Of a DNA stretch of 62,788 bases, positions 1,671 through 25,675 are shown one piece after another. The stretch lies in assembly GCA_017431035.1 (NCBI GenBank), contig JAFRLW010000032.1, positions 1-62,788 of the forward strand, in the 5' to 3' direction. The DNA is from Clostridia bacterium. GTDB lineage: Bacteria > Bacillota > Clostridia > Oscillospirales > Acutalibacteraceae. The notes below the pieces were generated by a model. The model saw only the letters and a list, made by a program, of their open reading frames with translations, did not search any database and was not told the origin of the DNA. Both the position numbers and the translations under genes were made by a program. The first letter of the stretch is position 1; each line of letters opens with the position of its first letter.

Positions 1671-1696
1671 AAATATTTTTTCAGGAGATGTGTTAT

Positions 1697-7484: not shown

Positions 7485-8981
7485 TTACTTGTGTAATTCT
7501 TTCAGCATATCGATAAGTTGCGCCGTGCAAAGTTCGGCTCCGCCTTTTGCGTAGTTTGTGATGCACACTTCGTAACATCCCGCGTCATAATATTGAGAGG
7601 TGGGGAGGTAGGAGTGATGATCGTCGGTGTAAGATAAGGTGATGGTGAATTTAAAGGGCGATTTCTCACGTATTTCCATACCCGACTGACAGAACATTTC
7701 GCAGGAGGCGGTTGTAAAACCTATATCTCCGATACAGAACGCGCTGACAGGCATTGTGTATGTCGGACCAAATCCTGCGCACCTGATGATTGCTCTAACC
7801 TGGTAAATACTGTGGATTTGGTATTTTTGAAGCAGACCTTGTATCAGCAGTTGGCTGTGAGTTTTGTTGTACTCGTTGTATATCTCTTTAGCGCCTGCCA
7901 AAAGATGGTCCTGGTCGTGGTTTGAAGCGGCGGTAAAGTTTTTTGTAACCGCTTTTATTTTGCCCGCTTCCATCTTGTCAAGTTTGTTGTACGCCGCCGT
8001 TACAAATGAGGCGAGTTTCTCACCGTATGCCCTGTATCCTTTTGAGTAATTGTCTTCTTCGCTGCTGAGCAACGATTTCTCATTCATGTTTCCGGCGCAG
8101 CCCTGATAGTAAGCCATATAACAATCGTTGTCTTTTTCAACAGTTGTTGTAAGAGGACCTATAACGTCGGAGGAAGCGTCTGTAAGCTGTGCGCCTCCGC
8201 TTAAATGCGGGTGACATTGCCAGTTGACAAGCAGAATGTCTTTGGCTTTGCTTCCGTCGCTCTTCTTCCTCGTAAATTTTATAAGACGCATTGTTTCATC
8301 AGGGGAGTCAATATGCCTTTCAAGAGGAGCCTGACTGAATATACCGTAGTTATCGCTCATCGCCGTACCGTCTGTACGCCAGTAATGACGGTCATAGTTC
8401 ATACCTTTTGTCTTTGTTTCTCCGGTATATATCTCGGCGGCTTTTCTGTCCGCCATAGCGATATCTATTGCCTCATGTATTCTTCTGAAGAGTTTGGCTT
8501 TATAGTTTAATACCGATCTTGTGTCCTGAGAAATACTCGGCGAAGAGTGGGTGTGAGTTGATGTCAGATGAACAAACTCAGGTTCAATGCCATATGTTTC
8601 TTTAGCGTATTTTCTCGCGTTCTCGGTGACGAATTCTTTAGTGGTAACAAGATCTTCTTCAAGCAATAACAGAGTCTGGTCGTCCTCGTCGGTTATGGCG
8701 ATACAGGAAACATACAACTCGTCAAGATATCCTGTTGACATACGGGTCAAACTGTCGCCGTATCCTTCAAGCGGAACGGAGTCTTCAGGTATTATTTCGG
8801 TTCTGCCGAAACCTACACGGAAGCCGGAGGAGGGAACCTTATCCCCGTCCGGCTTTGTTTCGCCGGTAATAAAGGTTCTTGAAACGGTTACCACCTTTTC
8901 ACTGCCGCAACCTGCAACGGATAGCAACATAGCAAGACAAATCAGAAGTGAAAAGATTTTTATTATATTTTTTGTTCTCAT
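7485..8981 (-). CDS. Neutral-ceramidase-like lipoprotein (cassette B)
   Basis: A 498-residue exported lipoprotein. The signal is MRTKNIIKIFSLLICLAMLL followed by the lipobox SVAGC, so it should be lipid-anchored on the outer face of the membrane. After a short linker the ceramidase-like domain begins at FRVGFGRTEIIPEDSVPLEG and contains HLTSTHTHSSPSIS, WQCHPHLSGG, YQGCAGNMNEKS and YDAGCYEV, matching the paralogues at 6082 and 15225. The His pairs are candidate Zn ligands. It starts 2 bases after the upstream giant repeat protein stops, and its ribosome binding site (GGAGAC) is inside the end of that gene, so the two are translationally linked. It is the last gene of the second cassette. The substrate is unknown. 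Confidence 0.75.
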   Translation of the reverse strand: MRTKNIIKIFSLLICLAMLLSVAGCGSEKVVTVSRTFITGETKPDGDKVPSSGFRVGFGRTEIIPEDSVPLEGYGDSLTRMSTGYLDELYVSCIAITDEDDQTLLLLEEDLVTTKEFVTENARKYAKETYGIEPEFVHLTSTHTHSSPSISQDTRSVLNYKAKLFRRIHEAIDIAMADRKAAEIYTGETKTKGMNYDRHYWRTDGTAMSDNYGIFSQAPLERHIDSPDETMRLIKFTRKKSDGSKAKDILLVNWQCHPHLSGGAQLTDASSDVIGPLTTTVEKDNDCYMAYYQGCAGNMNEKSLLSSEEDNYSKGYRAYGEKLASFVTAAYNKLDKMEAGKIKAVTKNFTAASNHDQDHLLAGAKEIYNEYNKTHSQLLIQGLLQKYQIHSIYQVRAIIRCAGFGPTYTMPVSAFCIGDIGFTTASCEMFCQSGMEIREKSPFKFTITLSYTDDHHSYLPTSQYYDAGCYEVCITNYAKGGAELCTAQLIDMLKELHK

Positions 8982-8983
8982 AT

Positions 8984-11900
8984 TTATTTTGTCTCCTTTA
9001 ACAGGTTGAGTGCAGGACTTAAAATTGAAAGATTAGCGTTCTTTTGTTCGTTGGCGGTTTTGATACTCATCATTTTACCCTTTGAACTTTCAAGGTAAAT
9101 CGCACCGTCTTTATAAACAACGCTGAAACCTGTCTTGGCGCTCTTTATATAACTCTCCGCGCCTTCTGCATAGTTGTCGGATACTTTACCGTCAGCGTCC
9201 GCGGTATCAACATTGAATTCGCTGCCTTCTGTCAGAACATCGGCAAAGTGGATATATGTTCCGTTAAGGTAAATATGCGTAGCGTCTCCGGTAATCTTTA
9301 TATTGCCCGACACTTCAATAATCGCGTTCTTGGCGCAGTAAATTCCGTCAGTGCCTTTGTCGGATTTTCCGGCAACTATTTCGGTATCGCAAAGGGTTAA
9401 CTTTCCTCCGCCGATAACGGTTATCGCGCCGCCGTTTCCGCCGATCTCACCGCCTACGATTTTAGCGCCGGAAATATTTGTTGTACCTCCGTTGCTTATG
9501 CTGATTACTCCTCCGTAAACATTGGCTGATTTATATGTAGGCGCTTTTAATGTTACATCGTAAACATTAAGCGTAGCGGTTTTGCTTACAAGTATTATCC
9601 GTCCGTTATCATTGCTTGTATAGTTATCTCCTTTGGCGGTGTTGTTGATTATACCGCCGCCTGCACAGTCGCAAAGAGTTAATACGGAGTTTTCGCCTGT
9701 TACACCAAAAGGTCTCCTTGCGGTACAGGAAATATTGTGTCCGTTAAGACAAATTGTAACATCCTGGTCTTTGCCTATACTTGTTTGAGCATTAGTAACA
9801 ACATCTTCAGTCAGATAGTAGTGACCGGAAGTCTTGGGCAGGGAAGTGGTCTCGGTCCATTCTGTGAATGTAACATCGCTGCCGCATTGTTTGCACAGAT
9901 GCGTATGACCTGTCACGACGGGCTCACCCGAATCTTCCTCAAGATAGAGCGCGCCGTCTTTAGCGTTTACCACATATCCCGATTTTCCGGACTGTATGTA
10001 GTTCTCTGCGCCCGATACATAGTTATCGGATACTTTGCCGTCGGCGCTTGATGTGTTGACAAGCATTCCGCTTCCGTCTGTAAGAGCGCCGTCAAAGTGG
10101 ATAAGCGCACCGTTGAGGTAAACCTGATTGGTCTCATTGTCAATCTTAACCTTTCCACTTACATTTACCTTCGCGCCGGAACCAGCGTATATCGCGTCGC
10201 CGTTGACATCAGCCTTGCCCGATACAATATTGACATTTTTAAGGTTCAAGGTTGCGCTTGTGCTTACGAATATCGCGCCGCCCTTACCGCCGTCATTTGA
10301 CTCGGTGTTATGGCCGATAGGTCCGCCGATAACCGTTGCATCCTCAATATTGCAGGTGCCGTTTTTGTTTATACCTATCGTTCCGCCGTTTACGCCCGAC
10401 TTAAACTCGGGTGATTTAACGGTGATATCAAATATATTAAGTGTTGTGTTCGCGCTTACAAGGATAATTCTGCCGTGACCGTCCTTGGCGTAAACATCGG
10501 TTTTAACGCTGTTTGATACAGTGCCGGACTCTTTGCAGTCCATAAGCGTAAGTTTGGCTCCGGTGCCGTTAAGCAGATATACACGCCTTGCGGTGGATGT
10601 AATGTCGTGTCCGTTAAGGCAGATAACAACATCCTTGCCGGCGCCCACGGTCTTCTGACCGTTTACTGTTACATCGTCAGTTAAATAGTAGTGACCCGAA
10701 TCTGTCGGCAGAGTCTCGGTTGAAGTCCATGCCGTCCAGGTAACGCTCTCGCCGCACTCCTTGCAGGTGTGCGCCTCGTGAGCGGGAGTCGGGGGAGGAG
10801 CGGACTCGTCTATAAGATAGAGTGCGCCGCTATTAACCTTAACTGTAAGATTTTCATCCGCGCTTTTGATAATGTTTTCAGCGCCCGCAACATAGTTCTC
10901 GGAAATCTGTCCTTCAATATGTGTAGTGGTAACGGTAAATCCGTTTCCTGCAAGCTCGCCGTCAAACTTCATAAGCGAGCCGTCAAGGTAAACCTGAGAT
11001 TTTCCGTCTTCTATGTTCACATTGCCCGAAAGGGTAATCTTGGCGCTTCCTGAGGCGTAAATGGCGTCGCCCTTGTCTGCTGTACCTGATACGATATCAA
11101 CATCGCAAAGCGACAGTTTGGCGTTGGGTCCCAAGTAGATTGCGCCACCGTTCTTTCCGACTTTGTCGCCCTTAATGTAGCAGTCTTTCAGGTTGATGGT
11201 ACCGTTACTGCTTACGGACAATACGCCGCCGTTTATATCGGAGGAGTATTTGGGCGATATAATCTGAACATTGTAAGCGTTGAGCGTTCCGCCCGAACCG
11301 ACAAGGATAATTCTTCCCTGACCGTCAGTACCGTAGGTGTTTGTTGTGGTGCTGTTATAAATCTTGCCGCCGCCTACACAGTCGCAAAGGGTCAGTCTCG
11401 CGTCCGCGCCGTTTACGAGGTAAACTCGTCTTGCGGTGGACTTGATTTTGTGACCGTTGAGGCAGAGGACAACATCTTCGCCCGCGGCTACGGTTTTCTG
11501 ACCGCTTACGGTTACATCGTAGCACAGATAATAGTGACCCGATGTTGTCGGAACGGAAGAGGAGTCAAGCCAGGGCTGCCATTCAACGCTGTTTCCGCAG
11601 TCAACACAAGCATGGTTTTCATTGTGTGCAGGAGCGGCAACCTTGAAGCATACGGCGTCTCCCTGTTTAACAATCTTGCCGTTATCTCTCTGGTTCTCAA
11701 AGTACTTCTCGGCGTCTGTATAGTAGTTTGAAGTTATCTTGACTATATTGTCGCCGCAGGCGATACCGATATGGCTGCCTGAAGTGAGAGGACCGCCGAG
11801 AGTTATCTGTCCGTCTTTGTTGATATAAACCTGTTTGCTTCCTCCGGTTATGTTAACTTTGCCTTCAATCGTGAAGGTTGCGTCAGAGCCGATATAAAGC

Positions 11901-13432
11901 GCGTCTCCGTTGCCGTCCGCTTTTCCGGAAGTTATGTTTGTGTTTTTCAGCGAGAGTGAACCGTAAGCGTTGACAGCGCCGCCGTTTTTACCTACCGGTC
12001 CGCCGATTATCGTACTGTCTTCAATATTCGCGGTACCGCCTTTGTTAACATTGATAGCGCCGCCGCTGATAAGAGGTGACTTGTATGACGGCGACTCAAT
12101 AGTAACACCAAAGAGGTTGAGCGTTGCATTTGCGCCTACAACGATTATTCTGCCGTTGTAACTGTCGCTGTTGTAAACATCTTTAGTAGTAGAGTTAAAG
12201 AGTTTACCTTTGTTCTTGCAGTCCATAACGGTGAGTTTTGAATTAGCGCCTGAAACTGCATATATTCTTCTCGCGGTTGATTTTATGTTGTGACCGTTAA
12301 GGCAGATTACGATATCTTTATCCGCCGCAATTGTTATCTGAGCGTTTACGGATATATCGCCGCAGAGATAGTAGTGTCCGCTTTCCGTGGGTAATTCGTT
12401 CGGGTTGGTAAGCGGAGTCCAGGTAACGCCTTCGTCGCACTCTTTGCAGGTGTGGCTGTCATGCGCTTCGGTCGGATTTATCTTTGACATAAATATCGCG
12501 CCCGAAACGGTTACAACACGGTCGGGAGTATCGCTTGTAAAGTATTTTTCACAACCGCTGCCGTTGATATAGTTTGTGGTAACTTTACCTGTGGCGGATA
12601 TGGTCGTTACGCCTATATGGCTTCCTTCGGTAAGCGGCTCTTTTTCATCAAGCGTAACCGAAGATGAGGAGAGATAGAGGTTGTTGTTTGAACCGTCTAT
12701 TACTACTTTACCGCCAATGGTGAGTTTTGACTTGGAGGTCAGATAAATCGCGTCACCCTTGCCGCCGCCGGCTTTGCCCGATTTAACAGTGGAGTCGTAA
12801 ATGCTTACAATACCGTTAGAGGAGAATATCGCGCCGCCGTTCTTTCCGACATTTCCGCCGATTATTTTGGCGTTTCTTACAGAGAGCTTCAAATTATCGG
12901 CAACATATATTACGCCGCCGTTGCCGGGTATTTCCTGCTCGGGCGCTTCGTATGTACCACCGTTAATACTGATATTTCCTCTGCGGGCGTAGAGTATTCC
13001 GCCGAATATGCCGTCCAGGTTGCCCTGGTATTTGGAGTACATTTTACCTGTGCCTACGCAGTCGTGGATATGGAGGCTTGAGCCGTCATAGAAGGTTGAA
13101 TACAACCTTGTGCCTGCCGCACGTACGGAGTAGCCGTTGAGGCAGAGTACAACATTTTGATTTTCACCGACATTTGCCTGAGGAGCAACAACGTTTCCGC
13201 ATAGGTAATAATGACCTGATTTAGTCGGCAGGGAAGTGGCACTGGTCCACGGTTGCCAGTTTATATTGCTGCCGCAGTCGGAGCAGTTGTGAGTTCCTCT
13301 GTGTGCGGTGACTGCATTGCTGTAGTTTCTGCTTATTACATATATATATTTAGCATTACCTTTATAATCCGCCCAGCACTGTATTACATCGCCTACGCGA
13401 AGCGAGGTTTCTTCGCCCCAGGTGGTCTTCAT
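8984..13432 (-). CDS. C-terminal portion of giant repeat protein B (after frameshift)
   Basis: This frame encodes 1482 residues made of five tandem ~280-residue units. Each unit opens with an H.C..C(G/D) motif (HNCSDCG, HTCKECD, HACVDCG, HTCKECG, HLCKQCG) and W..W, then GHYYL, LCLNG, a CDC- or HDC-type Cys pair, and beta-helix rungs such as GGAI and DAIY. It closes with a stretch like DGKVSDNY..GAE. The nominal ATG at 13432 has no ribosome binding site. Its first residues (GEETSLRVGDVIQ) align with the middle of giant A (GEETTLRVGDRIQ), so this is the downstream part of a longer gene and is not independent. It ends with a tail LSILSPALNLLKETK similar in pattern to that of giant A. The location is probably extracellular, if made as one protein with 13362-14966. 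Confidence 0.8.
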   Translation of the reverse strand: MKTTWGEETSLRVGDVIQCWADYKGNAKYIYVISRNYSNAVTAHRGTHNCSDCGSNINWQPWTSATSLPTKSGHYYLCGNVVAPQANVGENQNVVLCLNGYSVRAAGTRLYSTFYDGSSLHIHDCVGTGKMYSKYQGNLDGIFGGILYARRGNISINGGTYEAPEQEIPGNGGVIYVADNLKLSVRNAKIIGGNVGKNGGAIFSSNGIVSIYDSTVKSGKAGGGKGDAIYLTSKSKLTIGGKVVIDGSNNNLYLSSSSVTLDEKEPLTEGSHIGVTTISATGKVTTNYINGSGCEKYFTSDTPDRVVTVSGAIFMSKINPTEAHDSHTCKECDEGVTWTPLTNPNELPTESGHYYLCGDISVNAQITIAADKDIVICLNGHNIKSTARRIYAVSGANSKLTVMDCKNKGKLFNSTTKDVYNSDSYNGRIIVVGANATLNLFGVTIESPSYKSPLISGGAINVNKGGTANIEDSTIIGGPVGKNGGAVNAYGSLSLKNTNITSGKADGNGDALYIGSDATFTIEGKVNITGGSKQVYINKDGQITLGGPLTSGSHIGIACGDNIVKITSNYYTDAEKYFENQRDNGKIVKQGDAVCFKVAAPAHNENHACVDCGNSVEWQPWLDSSSVPTTSGHYYLCYDVTVSGQKTVAAGEDVVLCLNGHKIKSTARRVYLVNGADARLTLCDCVGGGKIYNSTTTNTYGTDGQGRIILVGSGGTLNAYNVQIISPKYSSDINGGVLSVSSNGTINLKDCYIKGDKVGKNGGAIYLGPNAKLSLCDVDIVSGTADKGDAIYASGSAKITLSGNVNIEDGKSQVYLDGSLMKFDGELAGNGFTVTTTHIEGQISENYVAGAENIIKSADENLTVKVNSGALYLIDESAPPPTPAHEAHTCKECGESVTWTAWTSTETLPTDSGHYYLTDDVTVNGQKTVGAGKDVVICLNGHDITSTARRVYLLNGTGAKLTLMDCKESGTVSNSVKTDVYAKDGHGRIILVSANTTLNIFDITVKSPEFKSGVNGGTIGINKNGTCNIEDATVIGGPIGHNTESNDGGKGGAIFVSTSATLNLKNVNIVSGKADVNGDAIYAGSGAKVNVSGKVKIDNETNQVYLNGALIHFDGALTDGSGMLVNTSSADGKVSDNYVSGAENYIQSGKSGYVVNAKDGALYLEEDSGEPVVTGHTHLCKQCGSDVTFTEWTETTSLPKTSGHYYLTEDVVTNAQTSIGKDQDVTICLNGHNISCTARRPFGVTGENSVLTLCDCAGGGIINNTAKGDNYTSNDNGRIILVSKTATLNVYDVTLKAPTYKSANVYGGVISISNGGTTNISGAKIVGGEIGGNGGAITVIGGGKLTLCDTEIVAGKSDKGTDGIYCAKNAIIEVSGNIKITGDATHIYLNGTYIHFADVLTEGSEFNVDTADADGKVSDNYAEGAESYIKSAKTGFSVVYKDGAIYLESSKGKMMSIKTANEQKNANLSILSPALNLLKETK
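9030..13300 (-). repeat. Five tandem ~840-bp coding repeats (CxxC beta-helix units)
   Basis: The H.C..C motifs are encoded near 13290, 12455, 11613, 10773 and 9903, so the period is about 835-870 bp (about 280 residues). The units are clearly homologous but diverged at DNA level, more so than the last three units of giant A. Confidence 0.85.
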
Positions 13433-14966
13433 ACATTTCGCTTACATTATATATCTTGCAATCATCGGCAAGAGTAACATCGGATTCGCTTCCCGCGTAG
13501 GAGCCGCTTGTCTTTAATGCGTGGAATGTATTGGGACCTGTCAGACTTGTGATAGTGTACCAGCTGGCTACCGAGCGGTAGTTAATGCCCGAAGCGCTTT
13601 CACAGCCGACTATAAAGTCACCGTTTATTACAAGGGTCATAGTTCTAGCGGGAACAGAGTCTATTTTATCGGCAAGTTCTTTGCTTGCAACTTTATAATC
13701 GTAAACCTTGCCGTCTTTCGCCATTATGAAGTGGTAATAACCGTCAGCCTTGCGCTTGCGGTTGCTTTGAAGCGTAACCGTATTCCAGGAGCGGTATACG
13801 TTCCACCATATCTCGCCGCCTTTGTAGCGGTTAACAACATAAAGGAGTATGGCTTTTGATGTGGAATCACTGTAAGCCTGAATGGTGTCGCCTACCTGAA
13901 CCTCGTCTGCTTCGCCCTGAAGAACTTTGTAGTTCTTACTTACATTATATATTTCGCAGTCGGCAGAAAGAGAAATTTCTCTGTCCTGGTTACTGTCATT
14001 GGCGCCTTGTACATATTTGTGCAAAGAAAGATTGCTTTCATTGATTTCGTCAACAGAGAACCAACTCGCAATACTTTTTCCGCCCGTGCATTTTGATACG
14101 GAAATGTGCTCAATAGCGTATCCGTCATCATCAAAGTCAAATCCGCAGCAAAGGGTTGAGTCGATTTTGTTTACAACCGACTTATCTTTGCATTTTATTT
14201 CTACCTGTTCTCCGCCGCAAGCGGTCAGAATATGATAAACGCCGTCGGCATCGGGTGTGCGCTTTGTAACGCCGTAGGCTTTATCATACTGTCTTTCGAG
14301 GTTCCAATAAACTTTGAGGTTTGCGCTTCGTTTAGTTATGTAAAGACCGTATACTTCGTCGCCTTTCATAATAACGGAAACCTGGTCTTTTTCTTCGATA
14401 GATTCAAACTTAACAGGCATACCTGCATCAAGCATAGCCTGAGTGGAAACGTCGATAACAGGCGTTGTAGATTTAATCTTAATTTTAACGTCTTTACCAC
14501 CGAGAGTAGCGGAGGAATTGGCTACTATCTCAAACTTTTTGGTATCAATGCTTTTAACGTATACACGTCTATATAGGAAATATGCGCCCATTTCTTCAAG
14601 CGGGATAATGTCGGTTATGCTGCGTGTCTTTTCGTCAATAACAAGACCCATAGCGTCATTATCATCAATTTTGTTTACAACAGTCGCTTTTTTTGTTCTA
14701 CGCTCGGTAGGTCTGCCGTCAACGCTGAACAGTATGTGATAAAAACCGTCCTCAAGATTTATCTGACGGGAAGAAACGCCACCCTCTCCCTGATCGAAAT
14801 AGTTTAGACGATTTATATTCCAATAAATCTTGTCGCTCCTTTCAAGAGCAGAGGTGTCCTCGGTTTCACGAGTTACAAAAAACACTGTGAGCCCGACTGC
14901 CGCAACAAGAACAACAGCCACTGCGGCTATTATAATTGTCAGCAATTTTTTAGATAATTTTTTCAT
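13362..14966 (-). CDS. N-terminal portion of giant repeat protein B, membrane-anchored
   Basis: This 534-residue frame starts at ATG 14966 behind a strong site (GGAGGAAC). Residues about 8-32 form a single hydrophobic anchor (LLTIIIAAVAVVLVAAVGLTVFF) without a cleavage motif, so the rest should be outside the cell. Three repeats of ~150-170 residues follow, each opening (I/V)(Y/W)WN (IYWNINRLN, VYWNLERQY, IWWNVYRSW) and holding a DG.YH.... segment, then NKID or ..KIDS, then (A)D/SCEIYNVS. The last ~17 residues (RRNLASRRRCNTVLGGL) are out-of-frame product. The domain resembles nothing I can name. It is the first gene after the terminator at 15171-15200 and is followed by the C-terminal frame and the lipoprotein at 7485. 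Confidence 0.8.
   Translation of the reverse strand: MKKLSKKLLTIIIAAVAVVLVAAVGLTVFFVTRETEDTSALERSDKIYWNINRLNYFDQGEGGVSSRQINLEDGFYHILFSVDGRPTERRTKKATVVNKIDDNDAMGLVIDEKTRSITDIIPLEEMGAYFLYRRVYVKSIDTKKFEIVANSSATLGGKDVKIKIKSTTPVIDVSTQAMLDAGMPVKFESIEEKDQVSVIMKGDEVYGLYITKRSANLKVYWNLERQYDKAYGVTKRTPDADGVYHILTACGGEQVEIKCKDKSVVNKIDSTLCCGFDFDDDGYAIEHISVSKCTGGKSIASWFSVDEINESNLSLHKYVQGANDSNQDREISLSADCEIYNVSKNYKVLQGEADEVQVGDTIQAYSDSTSKAILLYVVNRYKGGEIWWNVYRSWNTVTLQSNRKRKADGYYHFIMAKDGKVYDYKVASKELADKIDSVPARTMTLVINGDFIVGCESASGINYRSVASWYTITSLTGPNTFHALKTSGSYAGSESDVTLADDCKIYNVSEMYEDHLGRRNLASRRRCNTVLGGL
13416..13419 (-). other. Single-base frameshift site (run of four G)
   Basis: On the - strand the sequence reads CACCTGGGGCGAAGAAACC. 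One G fewer restores a frame that aligns with the paralogue. The upstream frame otherwise continues only about 17 codons before stopping at 13362. Confidence 0.8.
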
Positions 14967-15170
14967 ACAAAGTTCCTCCGTTTGAAGTAAAAAGACGTAT
15001 ATATTAAGTGCAACGTTGAAATTGCAAAAAATAACGTAAATATATCAAAATATCATTTATACCTATATCTTACAACATTTTATTAAAAAAATCAACACAA
15101 ATATTTCGAAATCTTATCGCTTTTTTAATAAATCTTAACATTTACTCCAAAGATCGGAAAAAATGTAAAA
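14967..15170 (-). promoter_or_regulatory. Promoter region of cassette B
   Basis: This AT-rich, gene-free stretch lies between the cassette A terminator and the start of giant B. Two weak - strand sigma-A candidates were seen: TTGTAA with TATTTT at 17-base spacing, and TTGCAA with an AT-rich -10 nearer the gene. The terminator upstream implies that a promoter must be here, but I cannot choose between them. Confidence 0.4.
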
Positions 15171-15200
15171 AAACGGACAAATCAAACGATTTGTCCGTTT
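15171..15200 (-). terminator. Terminator ending the dgoD-giant A operon
   Basis: A 13-bp perfect stem (AAACGGACAAATC 15171-15183, GATTTGTCCGTTT 15188-15200) with a 4-base loop. Read on the - strand it is followed by TTTTACATTTTTTC, 25 bases after the lipoprotein stop. Confidence 0.88.
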
Positions 15201-15224
15201 TTGTTGTCTGTTAAGGCCTATAAA

Positions 15225-16742
15225 TCATTTAGAAGATTTAAGCTCCTTAAGCATTTCTATAAGGAAGTCGGCGCATTGTTCGCCTACGCCTTTATTGAAC
15301 GGAGAGTTGCATACTTCGTAGCAACCGTAATCATAGGCGTCGGCATACGGTAAATAGCCCTGTGTGCTTTGGTCGGTATATCCTTGAGTAAAGGTGAGTT
15401 TATAGGGTGATCCTTTTCTTATTCTCTCACCAAGCACATCAAAGAACTCTACACCTGCCGAAGTCCAACCGATTTCACCTATTTGATAAGCATTTACAAG
15501 GAACTTCTTGGTTTTATCGGTTGTGTAATATTTGATTATACAACTTGCCTGTGCATTACAGCCGGGCATATTATACTGACGGCAAAGATCAAGTATAGCG
15601 CTTCTTTGCTTGCCTGAATTGTTATACTCCTGCATAACTTCAACTGCTTTATCATACATTCCGTCAAAGGTGTGGTTTACTTCACCCTCAAACTCTTTGG
15701 TTTCACTCTTAATTCCGGCTTCGGTGCTGTATTTTTCAAGTTTGTCATATATTTTAAGCGCCGTATCGGCAAGAAGTTTTCCGTATTCACGGTAATCTTC
15801 CGTTTTGTTGTTTTCGGGGAAATAAGTATCCTTTTCGTTGAGGTTTCCGGCACAACCTTGGAAGAAGGTCATATAACAATCTCTTTCTTTTTCAAGAGAG
15901 GTTCTAAACGCACCGGAAAAGTCAGCCGCAAGATCGGTTTTGTCCGATCCGCCGGTCATATGGTTATGCGCTTGCCAGTTAACAAGAACAACGTCTTTAA
16001 CCTTTTCGCCGTCGCTGTTTTTACGGGTGAACTTTATGATACGCATTGTTTCATCAGGGTCTTTAACGTGACTGACAACAGGAGAGGAGTAAATATATCC
16101 CCAGTTATCTCCGGCGGTTGTTCCGTCGGCACGATAATAGTTACGAACAAAGTTCAGTCCGTCGGTCTTGGTTTCTCCTGCGTACATCTCGGCGGCTTTT
16201 CTGTCCGCCATAGCCATATCTATAGCTTCGTGCGCACGTTGATAAACTTTAACAGAGTGGTCTTGTACCGATTTTACCGAACTTGCAAGACCTAAGTCAC
16301 CGGAAGAGTGGGTGTGAGTTCCGCTAAGGTGAACGTAGTTTTCATCAATGCCGTATTTATTCTTGGCATACTGCCTGAATTCTTTGAGGTAATCGTCTTT
16401 ACATTGAGTAAAGTCCCAACTCATAAGAAGCATTGTTTTGTCGCTATCGTCGGTTATTGCTATACAAGAGAAAAATATCTTGTTGAGATAACCTGTGGAG
16501 AAACGCTGCATAGCGTTACCGTAACTTCCGAGCGGAATAGAATCATCAGGCATTATGTCTGTTCTTCCGTAACCTACACGGAAACCGGAAGAGGGGACGT
16601 CGTCCCCGTCAATTTCCGATTCTCCTTCTAATAGTTTTCTTGTCGGCGTTGATATAGCATCATTGCTGCCGCATCCGGCAACGGCTAAAAGCATAGCAAC
16701 GCAAAGAATTAAGGCAAATATTCTTTTAATACTCTTGTTCAT
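15225..16742 (-). CDS. Neutral-ceramidase-like lipoprotein (cassette A)
   Basis: A 505-residue lipoprotein. The N-terminus has a hydrophobic signal (IFALILCVAMLLAVAGC) with the lipobox Cys near residue 24. The catalytic-type domain carries HLSGTHTHSSGDLG, VNWQAHNHMTGG, FQGCAGNLNEKD and YDYGCYEV, in the same order as the paralogues at 7485 and 6082. The THTH and HNH histidines are candidate Zn ligands, by analogy with neutral ceramidase. Its ATG overlaps the stop codon of giant A by one base (TAATG), a sign of coupled translation. It is about 150 residues shorter than true neutral ceramidases. It may cleave an N-acyl or related bond in an extracellular lipid or glycan, but no substrate can be assigned. 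Confidence 0.75.
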   Translation of the reverse strand: MNKSIKRIFALILCVAMLLAVAGCGSNDAISTPTRKLLEGESEIDGDDVPSSGFRVGYGRTDIMPDDSIPLGSYGNAMQRFSTGYLNKIFFSCIAITDDSDKTMLLMSWDFTQCKDDYLKEFRQYAKNKYGIDENYVHLSGTHTHSSGDLGLASSVKSVQDHSVKVYQRAHEAIDMAMADRKAAEMYAGETKTDGLNFVRNYYRADGTTAGDNWGYIYSSPVVSHVKDPDETMRIIKFTRKNSDGEKVKDVVLVNWQAHNHMTGGSDKTDLAADFSGAFRTSLEKERDCYMTFFQGCAGNLNEKDTYFPENNKTEDYREYGKLLADTALKIYDKLEKYSTEAGIKSETKEFEGEVNHTFDGMYDKAVEVMQEYNNSGKQRSAILDLCRQYNMPGCNAQASCIIKYYTTDKTKKFLVNAYQIGEIGWTSAGVEFFDVLGERIRKGSPYKLTFTQGYTDQSTQGYLPYADAYDYGCYEVCNSPFNKGVGEQCADFLIEMLKELKSSK

Positions 16743-19700
16743 TATTTTGTACCTGCCTTTCTGAGTAAGCCGTAAACATTACTGTAGACGTTTAAGTTTT
16801 TGGAAAGAGTGTTATTCAAAGCGGTGCCTAAGAAAATGTACTCGCCGTTTTGAGAGATGACAAATCCTTCTTTTTGGCTCTCAAAGTAGGTTTCAGCACC
16901 TTCTATATAATTAGAGGTTATCTTTCCGTCAGCCTTGTCGGTATTAACTCCGATATGACTGCCGTCTGTTAGTCCGTTTTCAATTTTAATCAAAGCACCG
17001 TCGCTAAGATAAACCTGTTCATCTCCGCCGGTGATTGCTACTTTACCCGATACGGTAAGAGTGGCGTTCTTGCCCATATAGATAGCGTCGCCGTTGACGG
17101 TAGCGGTGCCTGCCGTAATTTCAACGTCGGTGAGAGAGAGTTTCGCATTTGTGTTTACGAATATAGCACCGCCGCTTTTTGCAGTTGTGCCGCCTATAAT
17201 AGTGGCTTTTTTAATATTTATTGTATTGCCTGAACCGTCGTCGCAAATTGCAGCGCCGTGACCGGGAACGGTTGATTTTGCTGCCTCATAAGTACCGCCA
17301 AATAGGTTTAGCGTACCTTTTCTTACCCAAATTACGCTTCCTTGTGTTGTACCTGTGATTGTCGCTTTACCGTTATATATTTTACCTGTTTTCTCACAGT
17401 CACAAACGGTAAGTTCGGCGCCGGTTGCATTAAGTGCGTAAACACGGTTTGTAGTACCCTTAATGGTATGTCCGTTGAGGCAAAGAACAACATTTGCATT
17501 TTCGGTGTTTATAGTGTGTTGTCCTGCTTCAACATCTGTTGCTAAATAGTAGTGGCCGGTTGTATTCGGGAGGGAAGCGGCATCTGTCCATGCAGTCCAC
17601 TCTACGTCTTCTCCGCATTCTTCACATTTGTGATCTATATGCGGCGGTTTAATAAGCCAAATAGCGTTATTTTCAACCTTTATAGATGCCTTTTCTCTAT
17701 TGCTCTCGAAGTAGTTTTCCGCACCGTCTAAATAGTTAGAGGTTATCTTTCCGTCAGCCTTGTCGGTATTAACTCCGATATGACTGCCGTCTGTTAACCC
17801 GTTTTCAATTTTAATCAAAGCGCCGTCGCCAAGATAAACCTGTTCCTTTCCGCCGGTGATTGCTACTTTACCCGATACGGTAAGAGTGGCGTTCTTGCCC
17901 AAACTGATAGCGTCGCCGTTGTCGGTTGCGGTGCCTGCCGTTATTTCTACGTCAGTTAGAGAGAGCTTCGCATTTGTATTTACGAATATAGCACCGCCGC
18001 TTTTTGCAGTTGTGCCGCCGATAATTTTGGCGTTTTTAATGTTTATGGTATTGCCTGAACCGTCGTCGCAAATCGTAGCGCCGTGACCGGGAACGGTTGA
18101 TTTTGCCGCCACGTAAGTACCGCCAAATAGGTTTAGCGTACCTTTTCTTACCCAGAATACGCTACCTTGTGTAGTTCCGGTAATAGTTTCTTTGCTGTTA
18201 TATACTTTACCTGTTTTCTCACAGTCACAAACGGTGAGTTTTGCGTTTTCGGCATTAACAGCATATACACGGTTGCCGGTACCTTTAACGGTGTGACCGT
18301 TAAGGCAAAGAACAACGTTTGTGCCTTCGGTATTTATTGAGTTTTGGTCAGTTTCAACGTCTGCTGCTAAATAGTAGTGACCGGTTGTGGTCGGGAGGGA
18401 AGTGGCGCTCTCCCAAGCAATCCACTCAACGTCCTCTCCGCACTCGTCACACTTGTGGGTGTTCTTATGCTCTTCGGCGGTGCTTGAGCCGTCGTCAAGA
18501 TAGATAGCACCCGATTTAACCGCTATACTATAGCCCTCTTTTTCACTTGCAAAGAAGTTTTCAGAGCCTGATAGGTAGTTGGTGGTGATTTTGCCCTCTG
18601 CATCAGCGGTATTAACACCGATATGGCTGTCGTCAGCGACGTCACCTGCTAATGTGATATAAGAGCCTTCACCAAGATAAACCTGACTATCTCCGCCGCT
18701 GATCTTAACAAGACCTGAAACAGAAACGCCGACACTTTTAGCAACATAAATAGCGTCGCCATTTTCTGTGGCTTTGCCTGATGTTATATTGACGTTTTCT
18801 AAAACAAGTTTTCCGCCGGTTCCTTTGTATATCGCACCGCCGCTTTTTGCAGTTGTGCCGCCGATAATTTTGGCGTTTTTAATGCTTATGGTGTTGCCTG
18901 AACCGTCGTCGCAAATCGCCGCACCGTGACCGGGAACGGTTGATTTTGCCGCCTCGTAAGTACCGCCAAATAGGTTTAGCGTACCTTTTCTTACCCAGAA
19001 TACGCTACCTTGTGTAGTTCCGGTAATAGTTTCTTTACCGTTATATACTTTACCTGTTTTCTCACAGTCACAAACGGTGAGTTTTGCGTTTTCGGCATTA
19101 ACAGCATATACACGGTTGCTGGTACCTTTAACGGTGTGTCCGTTAAGGCAAAGAACTACGTTTTGGTTATCTGTGTTTATACTCTTTTGCTCTGTTTCAA
19201 CGTCAACAGCCAAGTAGTAGTGACCGGTTGTAGTCGGGAGAGAAGTTTCGTCATCCCATGCTTCCCAAGTAACGTCTTCTCCGCACTCGTCGCACTTGTG
19301 TTCGTTCTTGTGCGCCTCAACAACTTTATTCTCGTCATAGAGGTAGAGCGCACCTGACTTGTTTACTACAATGTGGTTTTCTTTTTGACTTTCGAAATAG
19401 GTTTCAATGCCGTCATAATAGTTTGTTGAAATCTTTCCGTTCGGGGTATCGGTGGTAACGCCTATATGGCTTCCGCTTGTGAGCGCACCGCCGAGTTTAA
19501 TGAGCGCGCCGTCAGCGAGATAAACCTGGGCATCGTCTCCGCCCGAGATTTCAACTCTGCCTGAAAGGGTGAGGGTTGTGCCTTTTTCCATATAAATGGC
19601 GTCGCCCTTCTTATCCGCTATACCATCTTTCAGAACAACATTTGTGAGGCTTACATCAGCGCTTTTGACAGCGATAATACCGCCGTTCTGGTCGGTAAAT

Positions 19701-22700
19701 CCGCCTTTGAGCGTAGCGTCCTTGATGTTTATGGCGTTTCCACTTGATCCGTCTTCGCAGATAATACCGCCTGATCCGGGTAACATTGCCGTGGTTCCCT
19801 CATAGGTACCGCCTGAAAGATTGAGTGTACCTTTGCGTACCCAGAACACACCGCCCTGTGTGGTTCCGAAGTTTCCGGAAGTCTTTCCGTTATACATTTT
19901 GCCGCTGTCTGTGCAGTCGCAAACGGTGAGTTTTGCATTTGTACCGTTTACGGCGTATACACGGTTAGATGTACCTTTAACGGTGTGACCGTTGAGACAG
20001 AGGACAACATTCTGATTGTCGCCTATCGTCTTTTGAACCGTGGAAACATCTGTTGCGAGGTAGTAGTGACCTGTCTCGGTCGGGAGGGAACTGTCGTCTT
20101 CCCAAGCCTCCCAGGTGACACTCTCACCGCATTCCGCACATTTGTGGTTAGACTTGTGTTCGTCGGGTTTAACCGAGCCGTTATCTAGGAAGAGACAACC
20201 GTTCTTGCGTTTGATTGTGTATCCCGATTTCTGGCTCTCAAAGTAATCTATCGCGCCGTCAACATAGTTGGTCGTGAATTTTCCTGAAAGGGTTGCGGTT
20301 GTTACGCCTATATGGCTTCCGCTTGTGAGCGCACCGCCCAACTTGATATATGCGCCGTCAGCGAGGTAAACCTGCGCTTTGGAACCGCCTGTAATGTTAA
20401 CATTGCCTGAAACTGTAAGGGTTGTGCCTTTATCCATATAAACGGCGTCGCCCTTGCCCGCGGCTTTTCCTGCCTTAATTGTGACATCTTTAAGTGATGT
20501 AGCCGCACTCTTGATGTACATTACGCCGCCGTCCTTATCGGTGGGACCGCCTATAAGGGTTGCGCCGGAAATGTTAATTGTGTTAGCGCTTCCGTCCTCG
20601 CAGATTAAGGAACCGAGTCCTGGCAGAGTGGCTGTTGTCGCCTGATATGTTCCGCCGAAGATGTTGAGTTCGCCGTTGCGTACCCAGAAGACGCTGCCCT
20701 GGGTGGTGCCGAAGCTTCCGGAGGTCTTTCCGTTGTAAATCTTACCGTTGCCTGCGCAGTCGCAAACTGTGAGCTTAGCGTCTGTGCCGTTTACGGCATA
20801 TACGCGGTTGCCGGAGCCTTTTACGGTATATCCGTTGAGGCAGAGAACAACATCCTGATTGTCGGTTATATTCTGCTGCGGCGTTTCAACATTACTGCAA
20901 AGGTAATAGTGACCGCTCTCGGTAGGCAGGGAGTTTGTGCTTATCCACGGTGTCCAGGTAACCTCTCCGCCGCAATGGTCACAGAGGTGAGTTGTCTTGT
21001 GCGGGGTCGCAGTCGTGTTCTTACTGAGGAAGAGGTAAGTCGCCGCTTTTGATACCGTGTAAGCCGGGTCGGAACTTACAAAGTATTTCTCGGCGCCGCT
21101 TGTGTAGTTGCTTGTAAATCTTCCGCCCGCGGTAGCGGATTCAAGAACAAACCGGCTTCCGTCGGTCAGCGGGTTTTTACTGTCAAGGTAGACATAAGCG
21201 CCGCTTTCAAGGTATAGGTCGCTCTTTCCTGAACTTCCTATATTTACCTTTCCGGAAACATACAGTTTTGAACTGTACTTCATATATACTGCGTTGCCTT
21301 TTCCGGTATCGGTTTGACCTGAAATAACGGTTGTGTTTTCAAGTCTTAAAATTGTATTTGCGCCGGCGCCCATATAAATTGCGCCGCCGTTCTTACTGGT
21401 CCTGCCGCCTTTAATGGTAGCGTTTTTAATGGTTACTTCAACATTACTGTTCGTGGCAATTACGGGTCCGACATTGTCTGCCTTTCCGGTAGGCGCCTCG
21501 TAGGTGCCGCCGAAAAGCTTAATTGATCCGTAGCGTCCCCAGATTATAGCGCCCTGCGTTGTGCCGAGATTTCCGGCATAGGTTGAGTACATCTTACCTG
21601 TGCCGACACAGTCGTGAATGGTAAGAGATGCGCCTTGCTCAAATAAAGCGTAGATACGTTTTCCTGCCGCGCGAACTTTGTGACCGTTGAGGCAGAGAAC
21701 AACGTTCTGATTTGCGAGAATGCTCGCCTGCGTCGGGAATACATCTCCGCAGAGGTAGTAGTGACCCGTAGTCTTCGGGAGTGAAGAACCGTTGGTCCAG
21801 GGTATCCAGTTTACATTAGCGCCGCAGTCTCCGCAGGTGTGGTTGCTGTTGTGCGGAGTTACGGGGTTTGTAAACTTGCGTCCTACTACATATATATATT
21901 TAGCCTTGCCTGTGTGGTCAACCCACGCTTGAATACGGTCGCCGACTCTGAGCGTAGTTTCTTCACCGATATGATCATTGTAGGTTTCGGTAACATTATA
22001 TATCTTGCAGTCTTCGGCAAGGTCAATATCGTATTCTTTGCCGTAGTCTTTGGCTGTGACAGAGTTTTTCTTAACATGTATAACATCGTTACTTACAAAT
22101 TTTTCTACATCGTACCAGCTTCCCTGAGAAGTGTAGATTTTACCGGGTGTTACAAGTTCCGTAACAACATTACCCGAGAAACGAAGTCCCATTGTGCGAG
22201 ACGCGATTTCGTCCATCTTGTTTGCTATATCGGCGTTCGCGACAAGTATTTCCTCCGTTTTACCGTCATGACACATAATAAAGTGGAAATAGCCGTCGGC
22301 TTCGCGTTTTCTCGTGCTGACCTTCTTGGTACTGTCCCACATACGGTATGCGTTCCAATAGATATCGCATTTTTCACGGCGAACTACTACAAATACTACT
22401 ACAACCCTACCGGTCGCGTCGGTAAAGCCCTGTATTCTGTCGGTGGTCTGGAGTTCTGTAACCTCGCCGATAAATTCCTTGTGGTTTTCACTTACATTGT
22501 ATACTTCGCAGTCGGGGTCAAGAACAAGGTTGAATTGTTTTCCGTTGTCGTATGCCGTCTTGCTGTGTTTTTCCGCCATAAACTGAAGACCGTCCATAGA
22601 CATAACATCAGCCCAGGATGCAACAGATTTACCGCCGGTGCATTTTGTAGGAGAAACGTATTCTATTGCATATCCGTCGTCATCAAAATTAAGACCGCAA

Positions 22701-23524
22701 CAACGGCTTCCTACGCTGTCAATTTTGCTTGCAAGTTGTCTGTCTTTGACTTTAACATCAACCTGCTGACCGCGAACAGCCATATTGAAATGATATACGC
22801 CGTCGGCGTCCGGCTCGCGGGTAGTCGCCTTATACTTGGAGTCGTATTTTCTCTCAATATTCCAATAAATAGGTGTAATTTTCGCGCGTTTTACTATGTA
22901 AACGGCATAAATACTTTCGTCTTTATTAAGAATGACTGAAATTTGGTCTTTCTTTTCAATAGATTCAAGTTTAACCGGTAAACCGGCGCTGTCACCGGCT
23001 TGAAGTGAAACGTCGAGAATAGGCGTGGTGGTTTTAACCTTTATGGTTTTTTCATCACCCATAAACGTAGCAGAGGAGTTGACGGTGATTTCCGTACCTT
23101 TTACCTCTTCAACGTACATTTTTCTGAAAAGGAAACCGCCGCTTATCTCGTCTATTGGTACAATATCGGTTATGTTTCTTGTCTTTTCGTCTATAACAAG
23201 ACCCATAGCGTCGTTGTTATCAATTTTGTTTACAACGGTAAGCGAACGAATTTTACGTTCGGACGGTCTTCCGTCAACACAGAAAAGAACGTGATAATAA
23301 CCGTCTTCAGTACTGAGTTCTCTGCCGGAAGCTCCGCCCTGACCTTGACCGTAGTAAACCAGACGGTCAATATTCCAATAAATCTTATTGGCGGAAGCGT
23401 CAGTATCGGTATTGTCGGCAGTGAGGTTGACGATTAGTATAGTTGCGGCAACAGCCACAGCAATAACCGCCAAAACTATTCCGGCAATAATCCATAATTT
23501 TTTGTTTTTTAAGTTAATTTTCAT
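16742..23524 (-). CDS. Giant membrane-anchored repeat protein A (2260 residues)
   Basis: ATG 23524 follows GGAGGA and overlaps the upstream stop (ATGA). Residues about 8-34 are one hydrophobic segment (LWIIAGIVLAVIAVAVAATI), an uncleaved signal anchor. Three ~170-residue repeats follow (about 45-215, 216-385, 386-555), opening IYWNIDRL, IYWNIERK and IYWNAYRM. Six ~280-residue units then start near residues 560, 845, 1125, 1407, 1687 and 1964. Each has H.C..CG, W..W, TGHYYL, VVLCLNGHTVKG, (V)CDC or HDC, rungs like GGTYEA and GGAI, QVYL and GSHIGV. The Gly-rich rungs indicate a right-handed beta-helix, and the clustered Cys/His suggest metal sites or disulfides. A short tail (YGLLRKAGTK) replaces any LPXTG signal. 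The likely role is a surface adhesin, scaffold or glycan-binding stalk for the lipoprotein encoded next. No enzyme motif is evident. Confidence 0.88.
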   Translation of the reverse strand: MKINLKNKKLWIIAGIVLAVIAVAVAATILIVNLTADNTDTDASANKIYWNIDRLVYYGQGQGGASGRELSTEDGYYHVLFCVDGRPSERKIRSLTVVNKIDNNDAMGLVIDEKTRNITDIVPIDEISGGFLFRKMYVEEVKGTEITVNSSATFMGDEKTIKVKTTTPILDVSLQAGDSAGLPVKLESIEKKDQISVILNKDESIYAVYIVKRAKITPIYWNIERKYDSKYKATTREPDADGVYHFNMAVRGQQVDVKVKDRQLASKIDSVGSRCCGLNFDDDGYAIEYVSPTKCTGGKSVASWADVMSMDGLQFMAEKHSKTAYDNGKQFNLVLDPDCEVYNVSENHKEFIGEVTELQTTDRIQGFTDATGRVVVVFVVVRREKCDIYWNAYRMWDSTKKVSTRKREADGYFHFIMCHDGKTEEILVANADIANKMDEIASRTMGLRFSGNVVTELVTPGKIYTSQGSWYDVEKFVSNDVIHVKKNSVTAKDYGKEYDIDLAEDCKIYNVTETYNDHIGEETTLRVGDRIQAWVDHTGKAKYIYVVGRKFTNPVTPHNSNHTCGDCGANVNWIPWTNGSSLPKTTGHYYLCGDVFPTQASILANQNVVLCLNGHKVRAAGKRIYALFEQGASLTIHDCVGTGKMYSTYAGNLGTTQGAIIWGRYGSIKLFGGTYEAPTGKADNVGPVIATNSNVEVTIKNATIKGGRTSKNGGAIYMGAGANTILRLENTTVISGQTDTGKGNAVYMKYSSKLYVSGKVNIGSSGKSDLYLESGAYVYLDSKNPLTDGSRFVLESATAGGRFTSNYTSGAEKYFVSSDPAYTVSKAATYLFLSKNTTATPHKTTHLCDHCGGEVTWTPWISTNSLPTESGHYYLCSNVETPQQNITDNQDVVLCLNGYTVKGSGNRVYAVNGTDAKLTVCDCAGNGKIYNGKTSGSFGTTQGSVFWVRNGELNIFGGTYQATTATLPGLGSLICEDGSANTINISGATLIGGPTDKDGGVMYIKSAATSLKDVTIKAGKAAGKGDAVYMDKGTTLTVSGNVNITGGSKAQVYLADGAYIKLGGALTSGSHIGVTTATLSGKFTTNYVDGAIDYFESQKSGYTIKRKNGCLFLDNGSVKPDEHKSNHKCAECGESVTWEAWEDDSSLPTETGHYYLATDVSTVQKTIGDNQNVVLCLNGHTVKGTSNRVYAVNGTNAKLTVCDCTDSGKMYNGKTSGNFGTTQGGVFWVRKGTLNLSGGTYEGTTAMLPGSGGIICEDGSSGNAINIKDATLKGGFTDQNGGIIAVKSADVSLTNVVLKDGIADKKGDAIYMEKGTTLTLSGRVEISGGDDAQVYLADGALIKLGGALTSGSHIGVTTDTPNGKISTNYYDGIETYFESQKENHIVVNKSGALYLYDENKVVEAHKNEHKCDECGEDVTWEAWDDETSLPTTTGHYYLAVDVETEQKSINTDNQNVVLCLNGHTVKGTSNRVYAVNAENAKLTVCDCEKTGKVYNGKETITGTTQGSVFWVRKGTLNLFGGTYEAAKSTVPGHGAAICDDGSGNTISIKNAKIIGGTTAKSGGAIYKGTGGKLVLENVNITSGKATENGDAIYVAKSVGVSVSGLVKISGGDSQVYLGEGSYITLAGDVADDSHIGVNTADAEGKITTNYLSGSENFFASEKEGYSIAVKSGAIYLDDGSSTAEEHKNTHKCDECGEDVEWIAWESATSLPTTTGHYYLAADVETDQNSINTEGTNVVLCLNGHTVKGTGNRVYAVNAENAKLTVCDCEKTGKVYNSKETITGTTQGSVFWVRKGTLNLFGGTYVAAKSTVPGHGATICDDGSGNTINIKNAKIIGGTTAKSGGAIFVNTNAKLSLTDVEITAGTATDNGDAISLGKNATLTVSGKVAITGGKEQVYLGDGALIKIENGLTDGSHIGVNTDKADGKITSNYLDGAENYFESNREKASIKVENNAIWLIKPPHIDHKCEECGEDVEWTAWTDAASLPNTTGHYYLATDVEAGQHTINTENANVVLCLNGHTIKGTTNRVYALNATGAELTVCDCEKTGKIYNGKATITGTTQGSVIWVRKGTLNLFGGTYEAAKSTVPGHGAAICDDGSGNTINIKKATIIGGTTAKSGGAIFVNTNAKLSLTDVEITAGTATVNGDAIYMGKNATLTVSGKVAITGGDEQVYLSDGALIKIENGLTDGSHIGVNTDKADGKITSNYIEGAETYFESQKEGFVISQNGEYIFLGTALNNTLSKNLNVYSNVYGLLRKAGTK
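16830..21850 (-). repeat. Six tandem ~840-bp coding repeats, last three nearly identical
   Basis: The H.C..CG motifs lie near 21840, 20990, 20150, 19300, 18460 and 17630. Units 4-6 (19.3-16.8 kb) share long DNA blocks with few differences, for example around 18100-18250 versus 18940-19090, and 16910-17020 versus 17730-17850. Units 1-3 are more diverged. This points to recent duplication or gene conversion at the C-terminal end. Confidence 0.88.
21870..23390 (-). repeat. Three ~510-bp coding repeats (YWN domain) of giant A
   Basis: YWN-type openings are encoded near 23386, 22873 and 22363, a period of about 510 bp. Two copies end with a (D)CE/KIYNV motif, followed by a (R)IQ(A/G)(W/F) segment. 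The same three-copy block occurs in giant B. Confidence 0.75.
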
Positions 23525-24426
23525 ATGGTATCCTCCGATTTGTCACAGTCGGTAAGAAAAGCGTCGCTGGTCATGTATTCAAACATTTCTTTAGCATATC
23601 GCATTTTCATATTTCTGATTTCAATAGGAACAAAATCGCGTTCGCCGGGAACTTCATAGTTATAAAGTCCGTCATATCCGCTGTTTTTAAGCGCTTTGAT
23701 AAAATCTACCCAGTCAACACGGTGTCCCTCTTTGCCGGAGTAGGGGAATAGATGCTGGTCTTCGTTTCCGGCATTGCCGTTGACATGAAGCGCTTTTATT
23801 CTGCCTTCGGCATTTTTGAAGAACTCCTCAAAGGTTTGTTCTACGTGGCCTAGTCCTACACTGCGGTTCAGGTGTCCTGTATCGAGGCAAATACCAAGAT
23901 GAGGCGAGTCATCACAGTCGTGAATATAGCGCATTATATAGTCGCTTTTTTCGGTGTTCGGGTTTTGAACAATGTTTTCAAGGCAAAGAACAATATCTCT
24001 GTCGCCTATATACTCAAGCAATTCTTTAAGGCGGGCAAGTTGTTTAGCATAAATCTTTTTAAGACCTTTTGTGCGTTTTTTGCCCTTAAAGTTGCCCGAA
24101 ATGTGTATAACCATATGTTTTACACCGACAGCTTCAAGAAAATCAATGTTCTTCTTTAGCAGTTCAAGCGGCTCGTCGCCAAGATACGGGTGATGGAATA
24201 AAAGATGTCCCTGGCTGATTTCAAAATCACGCTCTTTTGCGTAATCGTGTATTTTCTTAGCCTCAGCCATATATTCTTCACGGGGAAGGTTTATGTATGG
24301 AGTGGTGAAAACGTCGGGGTATTCCATAGCGTGATAACCCATTTCAATAAAACGGTCTATCGCGCCGTATATACCGAGTTCCTTGTAAATGCCTCCCCAA
24401 ATTGAAAGTATGAATTTGTTTTCCAT
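23521..24426 (-). CDS. Sugar-phosphate isomerase/epimerase-type TIM-barrel protein
   Basis: A 301-residue protein of the xylose-isomerase-like TIM-barrel (AP endonuclease 2) superfamily. Visible marks are the start LSIWGGIYKELGIYGAIDRFIEMGYHAMEYP, VLCLENIVQNP (a metal-ligand Glu), HLGICLDTGHLNRS (Asp/His ligands), KALHVNGNAG (His) and a late GLYNYEVPGERDF (Glu). Members isomerise or epimerise sugars and cyclitols, or oxidise them with partners. No signal peptide is present, so it is cytoplasmic. It lies 27 bases after dgoD, and its stop overlaps the start of giant A by four bases, placing it inside this operon. A role in supplying or processing a sugar acid for DgoD is an inference from position only. 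Confidence 0.75.
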   Translation of the reverse strand: MENKFILSIWGGIYKELGIYGAIDRFIEMGYHAMEYPDVFTTPYINLPREEYMAEAKKIHDYAKERDFEISQGHLLFHHPYLGDEPLELLKKNIDFLEAVGVKHMVIHISGNFKGKKRTKGLKKIYAKQLARLKELLEYIGDRDIVLCLENIVQNPNTEKSDYIMRYIHDCDDSPHLGICLDTGHLNRSVGLGHVEQTFEEFFKNAEGRIKALHVNGNAGNEDQHLFPYSGKEGHRVDWVDFIKALKNSGYDGLYNYEVPGERDFVPIEIRNMKMRYAKEMFEYMTSDAFLTDCDKSEDTI

Positions 24427-25629: not shown

Positions 25630-25675
25630 AAAAATGTCCTCTTTTATAAATGAAAAATAATTCTTTTGCATAGTA

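Follow-up and report, generated by a model that had tools for sequence, protein, structure and literature searches.

Systems in which a surface binding protein is combined with a tethered hydrolase, and which are multiplied within a genome, include SusCD and the cellulosomes. A comparable arrangement is suggested by a two-gene cassette from a Clostridia bacterium, found on contig JAFRLW010000032.1 of assembly GCA_017431035.1, whose 62,788 analysed nucleotides are here called the window. The cassette couples a very large repeat protein (hereafter the giant) to a lipoprotein resembling neutral ceramidases, and it differs from both systems in its folds and in its enzyme family; dockerins, cohesins and TonB partners were absent from the Pfam listings of the cassette proteins, no genome-wide search for them having been made. 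The recurrence of this pairing in uncultured gut bacteria points to an undescribed capture and cutting of molecules outside the cell, and we lean, by a modest degree, towards reading it as a two-part surface device, in which a membrane-anchored beta-helix stalk would serve a tethered zinc hydrolase.

True neutral ceramidases have a C-terminal ceramidase domain and a length near 650 amino acids (aa). The human enzyme (PDB 4wgk) and that of Pseudomonas (2zws), with chains of 646-688 aa, share with the cassette enzymes a homologous catalytic region in which a His-His-His-Glu set and two Tyr are kept. Unlike them, the lipoproteins of the window are short and lie at or below the Pfam threshold, and the enzymes considered here are lipoproteins or unexported forms with many paralogues. 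On the side of the giant, the binding region of the Lactobacillus reuteri serine-rich repeat protein (SRRP; 5nxk, 5ny0) and Rhombotarget A (9cdv) have in common with its CxxC units a parallel beta-helix. SRRPs bear serine-rich repeats and a C-terminal LPxTG anchor, whereas the full translation of giant A, read by eye, contains neither (its C-terminus is LLRKAGTK), and the giants stack several helix units on OB-like repeats in tandem, carry an anchor at the N-terminus and have a partner gene for an enzyme. Rhombotarget A undergoes rhombosortase processing, and we know of no enzyme partner for it. CusF (2qcp) and the self-assembly domain of a Viridibacillus S-layer protein (9fs9) resemble the YWN repeat of the giants below the level that shows kinship; unlike these two, YWN repeats hold two OB-like halves and are arranged in arrays.

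The folds and single domains are already known, while neither the combination nor its multiplication was found described in the open-access literature searched (bioRxiv not covered). SrfJ, likened to glycosylceramidases in PMC9430895, is a different kind of protein from the enzymes treated here.

Anatomy of the tandem cassette

The preliminary description of the window placed the two-gene cassette twice in tandem on the - strand. The cassette is real and giant A is a single open reading frame (ORF), but a one-base frameshift divides giant B. The features, in positions of the whole window, are as follows.

16742..23524, - strand: giant A, 2260 aa in one ORF, with an N-terminal hydrophobic anchor, three YWN repeats and six CxxC beta-helix units
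21869..23389, - strand: YWN repeats 1-3 of giant A (22877-23389, 22370-22876, 21869-22369)
16796..21841, - strand: CxxC units 1-6 of giant A (20993-21841, 20150-20989, 19304-20146, 18461-19300, 17633-18457, 16796-17632)
15225..16742, - strand: lipoprotein A, 505 aa, ceramidase-like, lipobox VAGC, with H143, H145, H259, E432, Y463 and Y475 present
13362..14966, - strand: giant B N-terminal ORF, 534 aa, anchor and YWN repeats, ending past the frameshift
8984..13432, - strand: giant B C-terminal ORF, 1482 aa, end of YWN repeat 3 and five CxxC units
7485..8981, - strand: lipoprotein B, 498 aa, ceramidase-like, lipobox VAGC

Each lipoprotein gene begins at the end of its giant, as had been described, with a 1-base overlap in copy A and a 2-base gap in copy B, and the three YWN repeats per giant were likewise confirmed. 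The two ORFs of giant B overlap by 71 bases (13362-13432), and the frameshift, lying where the frame of giant A stays unbroken, is either a true mutation or an assembly or sequencing error. Judged by their alignment, copies A and B are true homologues: the lipoproteins are 48% identical, and the giants 48% in the N-terminal part and 43% in the CxxC part.

Structure models were obtained for single units of giant A, in which YWN repeat 2 was modelled as two OB-like halves (mean predicted local distance difference test score, pLDDT, 97.8) and CxxC unit 2 as a parallel beta-helix (mean pLDDT 96.4). A PDB sequence search with giant A returned only two chance-level antibody entries. Across genomes, most giants hold 3-6 YWN repeats (1-8 recognised). 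By eye, the three C-terminal CxxC units of giant A (16796-19300) look far more alike than the other units, a sign of recent internal amplification. Moreover, an H-x-C-x-x-C knuckle stands at the start of every CxxC unit of both giants, and in many units a C-x-C follows further on; weak zinc-ribbon matches, below the cut-off, hint that each helix is capped by a metal or a disulfide.

The enzyme belongs to a family whose 13-member profile matches the human (E 5e-16) and the Pseudomonas (E 1.3e-11) neutral ceramidases. At E <= 0.01, PF04734 is found in 11 of the 13 (best 1.2e-14); lipoprotein B matches it at E 1.9e-6 with 27.3 bits, under the curated cut-off of 32.1, and lipoprotein A has no PF04734 match in a Pfam scan at E <= 0.1, nor any match in a PDB search with its sequence alone. 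Six positions (the two His of THTHS, a third His, a Glu and two Tyr) are invariant in all 13 aligned members. In the alignment with 2zws all six are in register, and in that with 4wgk five are, the third His being displaced by one column; the stretch holding Glu and Tyr is weak by itself in both alignments. By the roles of these residues in neutral ceramidases, we take the three His, the Glu and the Tyr to be zinc ligands and catalytic Tyr. The pattern HHHEYY was read in 106 of 124 enzyme ORFs from six genomes, and the six positions are among the most conserved columns; of the remaining 18 ORFs, eight read HHPEYY and ten differ otherwise, through misalignment or real change. Since these residues are kept in most ORFs, most copies look, as far as sequence can tell, like active enzymes and not relics.

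Both lipoproteins can accordingly be placed, by profile, in the neutral-ceramidase superfamily with the zinc and Tyr residues kept, and both carry an N-terminal signal whose lipobox pattern predicts lipidation. They fall outside true neutral ceramidases in length and in domain content, the C-terminal ceramidase domain being unmatched in lipoproteins A and B (Pfam, E <= 0.1) and in the 13 members (E <= 0.01). The term ceramidase-like used in the preliminary description is thus justified for family and active-site residues, beyond which no evidence gathered here indicates ceramide as the substrate.

Coupling of giants and enzymes across genomes

The coupling of giant and lipoprotein is well supported by a survey of six genomes: that of the window (G000), a congener (G008, equal to G483, whose contigs are those of CAMPCO01 by coordinates) and four metagenome-assembled genomes (MAGs; G479-G482). 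Matches merged by hand gave 45 giants, of which four were excluded: L192, alone on its contig; L045 and L046, whose downstream side lies past the contig end; and that of G480:C45, with no YWN repeat in L184. Gene calls in the fetched loci came from a simple codon-score script, so that starts are approximate. Neighbours could be read for 41 giants, and in 26 of these the adjoining gene on the same strand, less than 310 bp away, is ceramidase-like, against a chance expectation of about one (from approximate figures for the enzymes in each genome and for gene density, one per 1.1 kb). By genome, adjacency holds for 3/3 giants in G000, 2/2 in G483, 6/8 in G481, 9/13 in G479, 4/9 in G480 and 2/6 in G482. 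A scatter of homologues without adjacency, which would have told against the proposed coupling, was therefore not what the genomes showed, G482 being the one that is little coupled.

The exported form of the enzyme, recognised by its lipobox pattern, occurs in 25 of the 26 coupled runs, seven of which hold a second, lipobox-free enzyme beside it. When 105 unfused ORFs were compared (19 fused or long ORFs of the 124 being set aside), 28 of 48 lipobox enzymes adjoined a giant or helix ORF (24 YWN giants and four helix-only ORFs), as opposed to 8 of 57 lipobox-free ones. The order of the genes is less constant than the preliminary description had it: where a giant followed by its lipoprotein was expected, the counted enzyme gene lies upstream of the giant in all but one of the 24 pairs that are not part of the window's cluster, mostly less than 45 bases away, and the reverse order is seen in the window, at L128 and on two G008 contigs holding only a giant's end.

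In addition, the ceramidase-like domain and CxxC helix units are joined in one chain in 16 ORFs (domain E up to 0.01). The enzyme comes first in G000:C9, a chain of 2265 aa with a Big_2 domain between the two parts, and the helix comes first in other ORFs; that the two are fused in either order suggests an advantage in keeping helix and enzyme together. YWN repeats fused to the enzyme were not seen among the mapped loci.

Some giants have another neighbour. Five of them (L066, L068, L179, L180 and L181) adjoin a member of another family, in which Cys (G[NLS][TSD]C) and Gly-His motifs are conserved, and the neighbour of the L178 giant is a lipoprotein aligning weakly with it. Read by eye, this Cys/His-motif family may be papain-like or NlpC/P60-like, and an export signal was seen, also by eye, in some members. 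Five scanned proteins gave no NCBIfam match to a family of either type, the family profile had no PDB match, no Pfam match was obtained for L068 and L179, and L178 gave only DUF11/NPCBM_assoc below the cut-off. As five or six giants have this neighbour instead, the enzyme looks exchangeable. The Cys/His-motif partner at L180 (14046-16556, + strand) is an 836-aa frame whose first part resembles, by eye, an SGNH/acetylesterase-type domain. At L183, one of nine giants without a recognised partner, a lipoprotein of no recognised family lies 6 bases upstream.

The giant is present in three copies in the genome of the window and in four in G008. It was detected in no other of 60 relatives nor of 70 genomes of the genus, and a class sample of 391 genomes, in which up to three candidates per genome were scored, contained it in the window's own genome alone; a widespread giant was thus rejected (2/60 relatives, 2/70 genus and 1/391 class genomes, the own genome counted in). 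The enzyme family is commoner, with 49 of 391 genomes in the same sample. Outside G000, every enzyme match there begins at profile position 21 or later, and the exported form was accordingly not observed in those genomes, although signal peptides align poorly. When the YWN profile was run over named genome contigs, it yielded 16 loci, four from CAMPCO01 and 12 from the four MAGs. The latter are labelled Lachnospiraceae or Oscillospiraceae, two of them being titled as water-buffalo gut, and their YWN loci are mostly 30-35% identical. In their 2.3-2.5 Mb they hold 15 to 65 ceramidase-like places per genome, some of them the two parts of a single gene, along with 7 to 13 giants apiece. Many of their expanded ceramidase-like genes have neither a lipobox nor an adjoining giant.

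As regards the history of the pairs, lipoprotein A clusters with two enzymes of G008 (support 96/96) and giant B with a giant of that genome (97/98), which implies that the A/B duplication predates the species split. A recent duplication was accordingly rejected, the trees placing the parting of A and B before the G000/G008 split with the position of giant A not settled. For the C30 pair, G008 carries an orthologous pair (80% and 71% identical); the two genes have thus stayed together in at least one case. Two independent retentions had been read from the window, which taken alone holds one old duplication; independent retentions were found in the other genomes.

Possible functions and their rivals

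In the surface device that we favour, an N-terminal hydrophobic helix would hold the giant in the cell membrane, from which it would project outward through its tandem OB-like YWN repeats to end in a series of parallel beta-helix units like those known from surface adhesins and polysaccharide lyases. There it may capture or present a glycan or glycoconjugate. Its partner would be a lipoprotein on the same membrane face, which by its complete neutral-ceramidase-type zinc site probably hydrolyses amide bonds (or ester or lactone bonds of a related kind), and which, tethered, would cut the captured molecule next to the cell. Different copies would bear different enzymes, probably for different substrates. 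The proposal of the preliminary description that giant and lipoprotein cooperate outside the cell gains from the adjacency, the lipobox counts and the fusions, whereas the intact second giant that it assumed did not survive.

Several observations weigh against the device. If the contig-edge giants L045 and L046 of G008 are scored as misses, adjacency falls to 26/43, and 15 of the 41 giants are without an adjacent ceramidase-like gene (five clearly and one possibly with another partner, nine with none recognised). G482 fits poorly, with 2/6 giants and 3/18 lipobox enzymes coupled. Foldseek searches with the models of YWN repeat 2 and CxxC unit 2 gave no match at E <= 0.001, and a beta-helix fold in common with adhesins demonstrates no binding function. 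The operon context is mixed, with no single pathway. Distances between giants and between enzymes correlate weakly (Mantel r 0.34, 25 pairs, one of the 26, L118, having been dropped for length), a value reached in 4/5000 free permutations and in 217/5000 within-genome permutations; in the four distant MAGs alone (20 pairs), r was 0.22, with 548/5000 permutations as high. This is little sign of tight co-evolution, and partners may have been swapped over time.

The weak co-evolution speaks for a rival reading, in which giant and enzyme are co-transcribed without contact, sharing a sugar-acid or glycoconjugate operon in which the giant is an adhesin or structural protein and the enzyme acts independently. 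A galactonate-dehydratase-type gene and a TIM-barrel gene lead directly into giant A, and among the operon mates (149 of 150 scanned, one 1540-aa protein being left out for size) are two GH28 and single UxaC, GH38 and L-fucose-isomerase genes. M20 peptidases lead with seven members, ahead of permease components with six and Ldh_2 with three, in plain counts over the 25 most frequent of 101 and of 129 families; genes resembling 2-keto-3-deoxy-6-phosphogluconate (KDPG) aldolase and 2-keto-3-deoxygluconate (KDG) kinase, named by eye, also lie near cassettes. In a loose sense, the context is one of uptake and catabolism of sugars or amides. The helix-enzyme fusions speak against independent action, as does the giant's retention of an enzyme neighbour while other neighbours vary between loci, and we judge co-transcription alone rather unlikely.

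Sphingolipid foraging, with the lipoproteins as true ceramidases deacylating host or dietary ceramides and the giant adhering to mucosal membranes, is less probable still. It could appeal to the profile matches and aligned active-site residues described above, and to the gut origin in the titles of two MAGs. Set against this are the weak or missing PF04734 matches, the unmatched C-terminal domain, the want of any sphingolipid-specific family among the 25 commonest operon-mate families of either set, and the tens of paralogues in some genomes, which, with 57 of 105 unfused ORFs lacking a lipobox, would be odd for one extracellular lipid class. That the giants are wall or surface-layer-like components, which zinc-hydrolase or Cys/His-motif lipoproteins process while assembling or remodelling the envelope, seems very improbable.

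Returning to the surface device, a wider version of it is put forward tentatively, as a possibility we rate below the device itself. It would be a new capture-and-cut system in which a constant OB-repeat/beta-helix scaffold carries exchangeable tethered hydrolases (ceramidase-fold zinc enzymes or those of the unrelated Cys/His-motif family), multiplied in some genomes to about ten scaffolds and tens of enzymes; it would be a utilisation toolkit private to uncultured gut Clostridia, its ceramidase-fold enzymes having moved to N-acylated or lactone-bearing glycoconjugates. If this is true, unannotated giants and possibly misnamed ceramidases of gut Clostridia become one testable system. The findings suggest that the ceramidase fold was recruited and multiplied for a non-ceramide role, and automatic ceramidase labels in gut genomes therefore call for a test before they are taken to mean sphingolipid breakdown. 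The OB-like repeats and helix units offer defined handles for the finding of ligands, and the natural fusions ready-made constructs.

Other genes of the window

The genes flanking the two cassettes are listed below; the third ceramidase-like gene and the TIM-barrel gene had been passed over in the preliminary description.

1688..3721, + strand: 677-aa protein of family F1, with glycosidase-like motifs by eye only
4821..5912, + strand: malate/L-lactate dehydrogenase family gene (Ldh_2), of a family that recurs near these enzymes
6082..7425, + strand: third ceramidase-like gene (447 aa; match to the lipoprotein profile at E 1.2e-126), without a signal peptide and convergent with lipoprotein B
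23521..24426, - strand: xylose-isomerase-like TIM-barrel gene, overlapping the start of giant A by 4 bases
24454..25671, - strand: galactonate-dehydratase-type gene of the enolase superfamily, upstream on the same strand

The TIM-barrel gene is probably on the same transcript as giant A. The arrangement of the third ceramidase-like gene is repeated in the congener (L044), where its counterpart (L044:831-2180) is broken by an in-frame TAG. A 313-aa protein with a signal-like start (593-1534, + strand) gave a weak match to a single CxxC helix (E 1.4e-7). Family F1 showed no Pfam match passing the cut-off and no NCBIfam match; it has seven members, found near ceramidase-like genes in all six mapped genomes, and by the motifs read by eye it is possibly an undescribed glycosidase family. 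A further family, F19 (about 700 aa; L134, L143, L147 and L175), recurs near ceramidase-like genes in three genomes, its member in L134 being a pyruvate-formate-lyase-like glycyl-radical enzyme.

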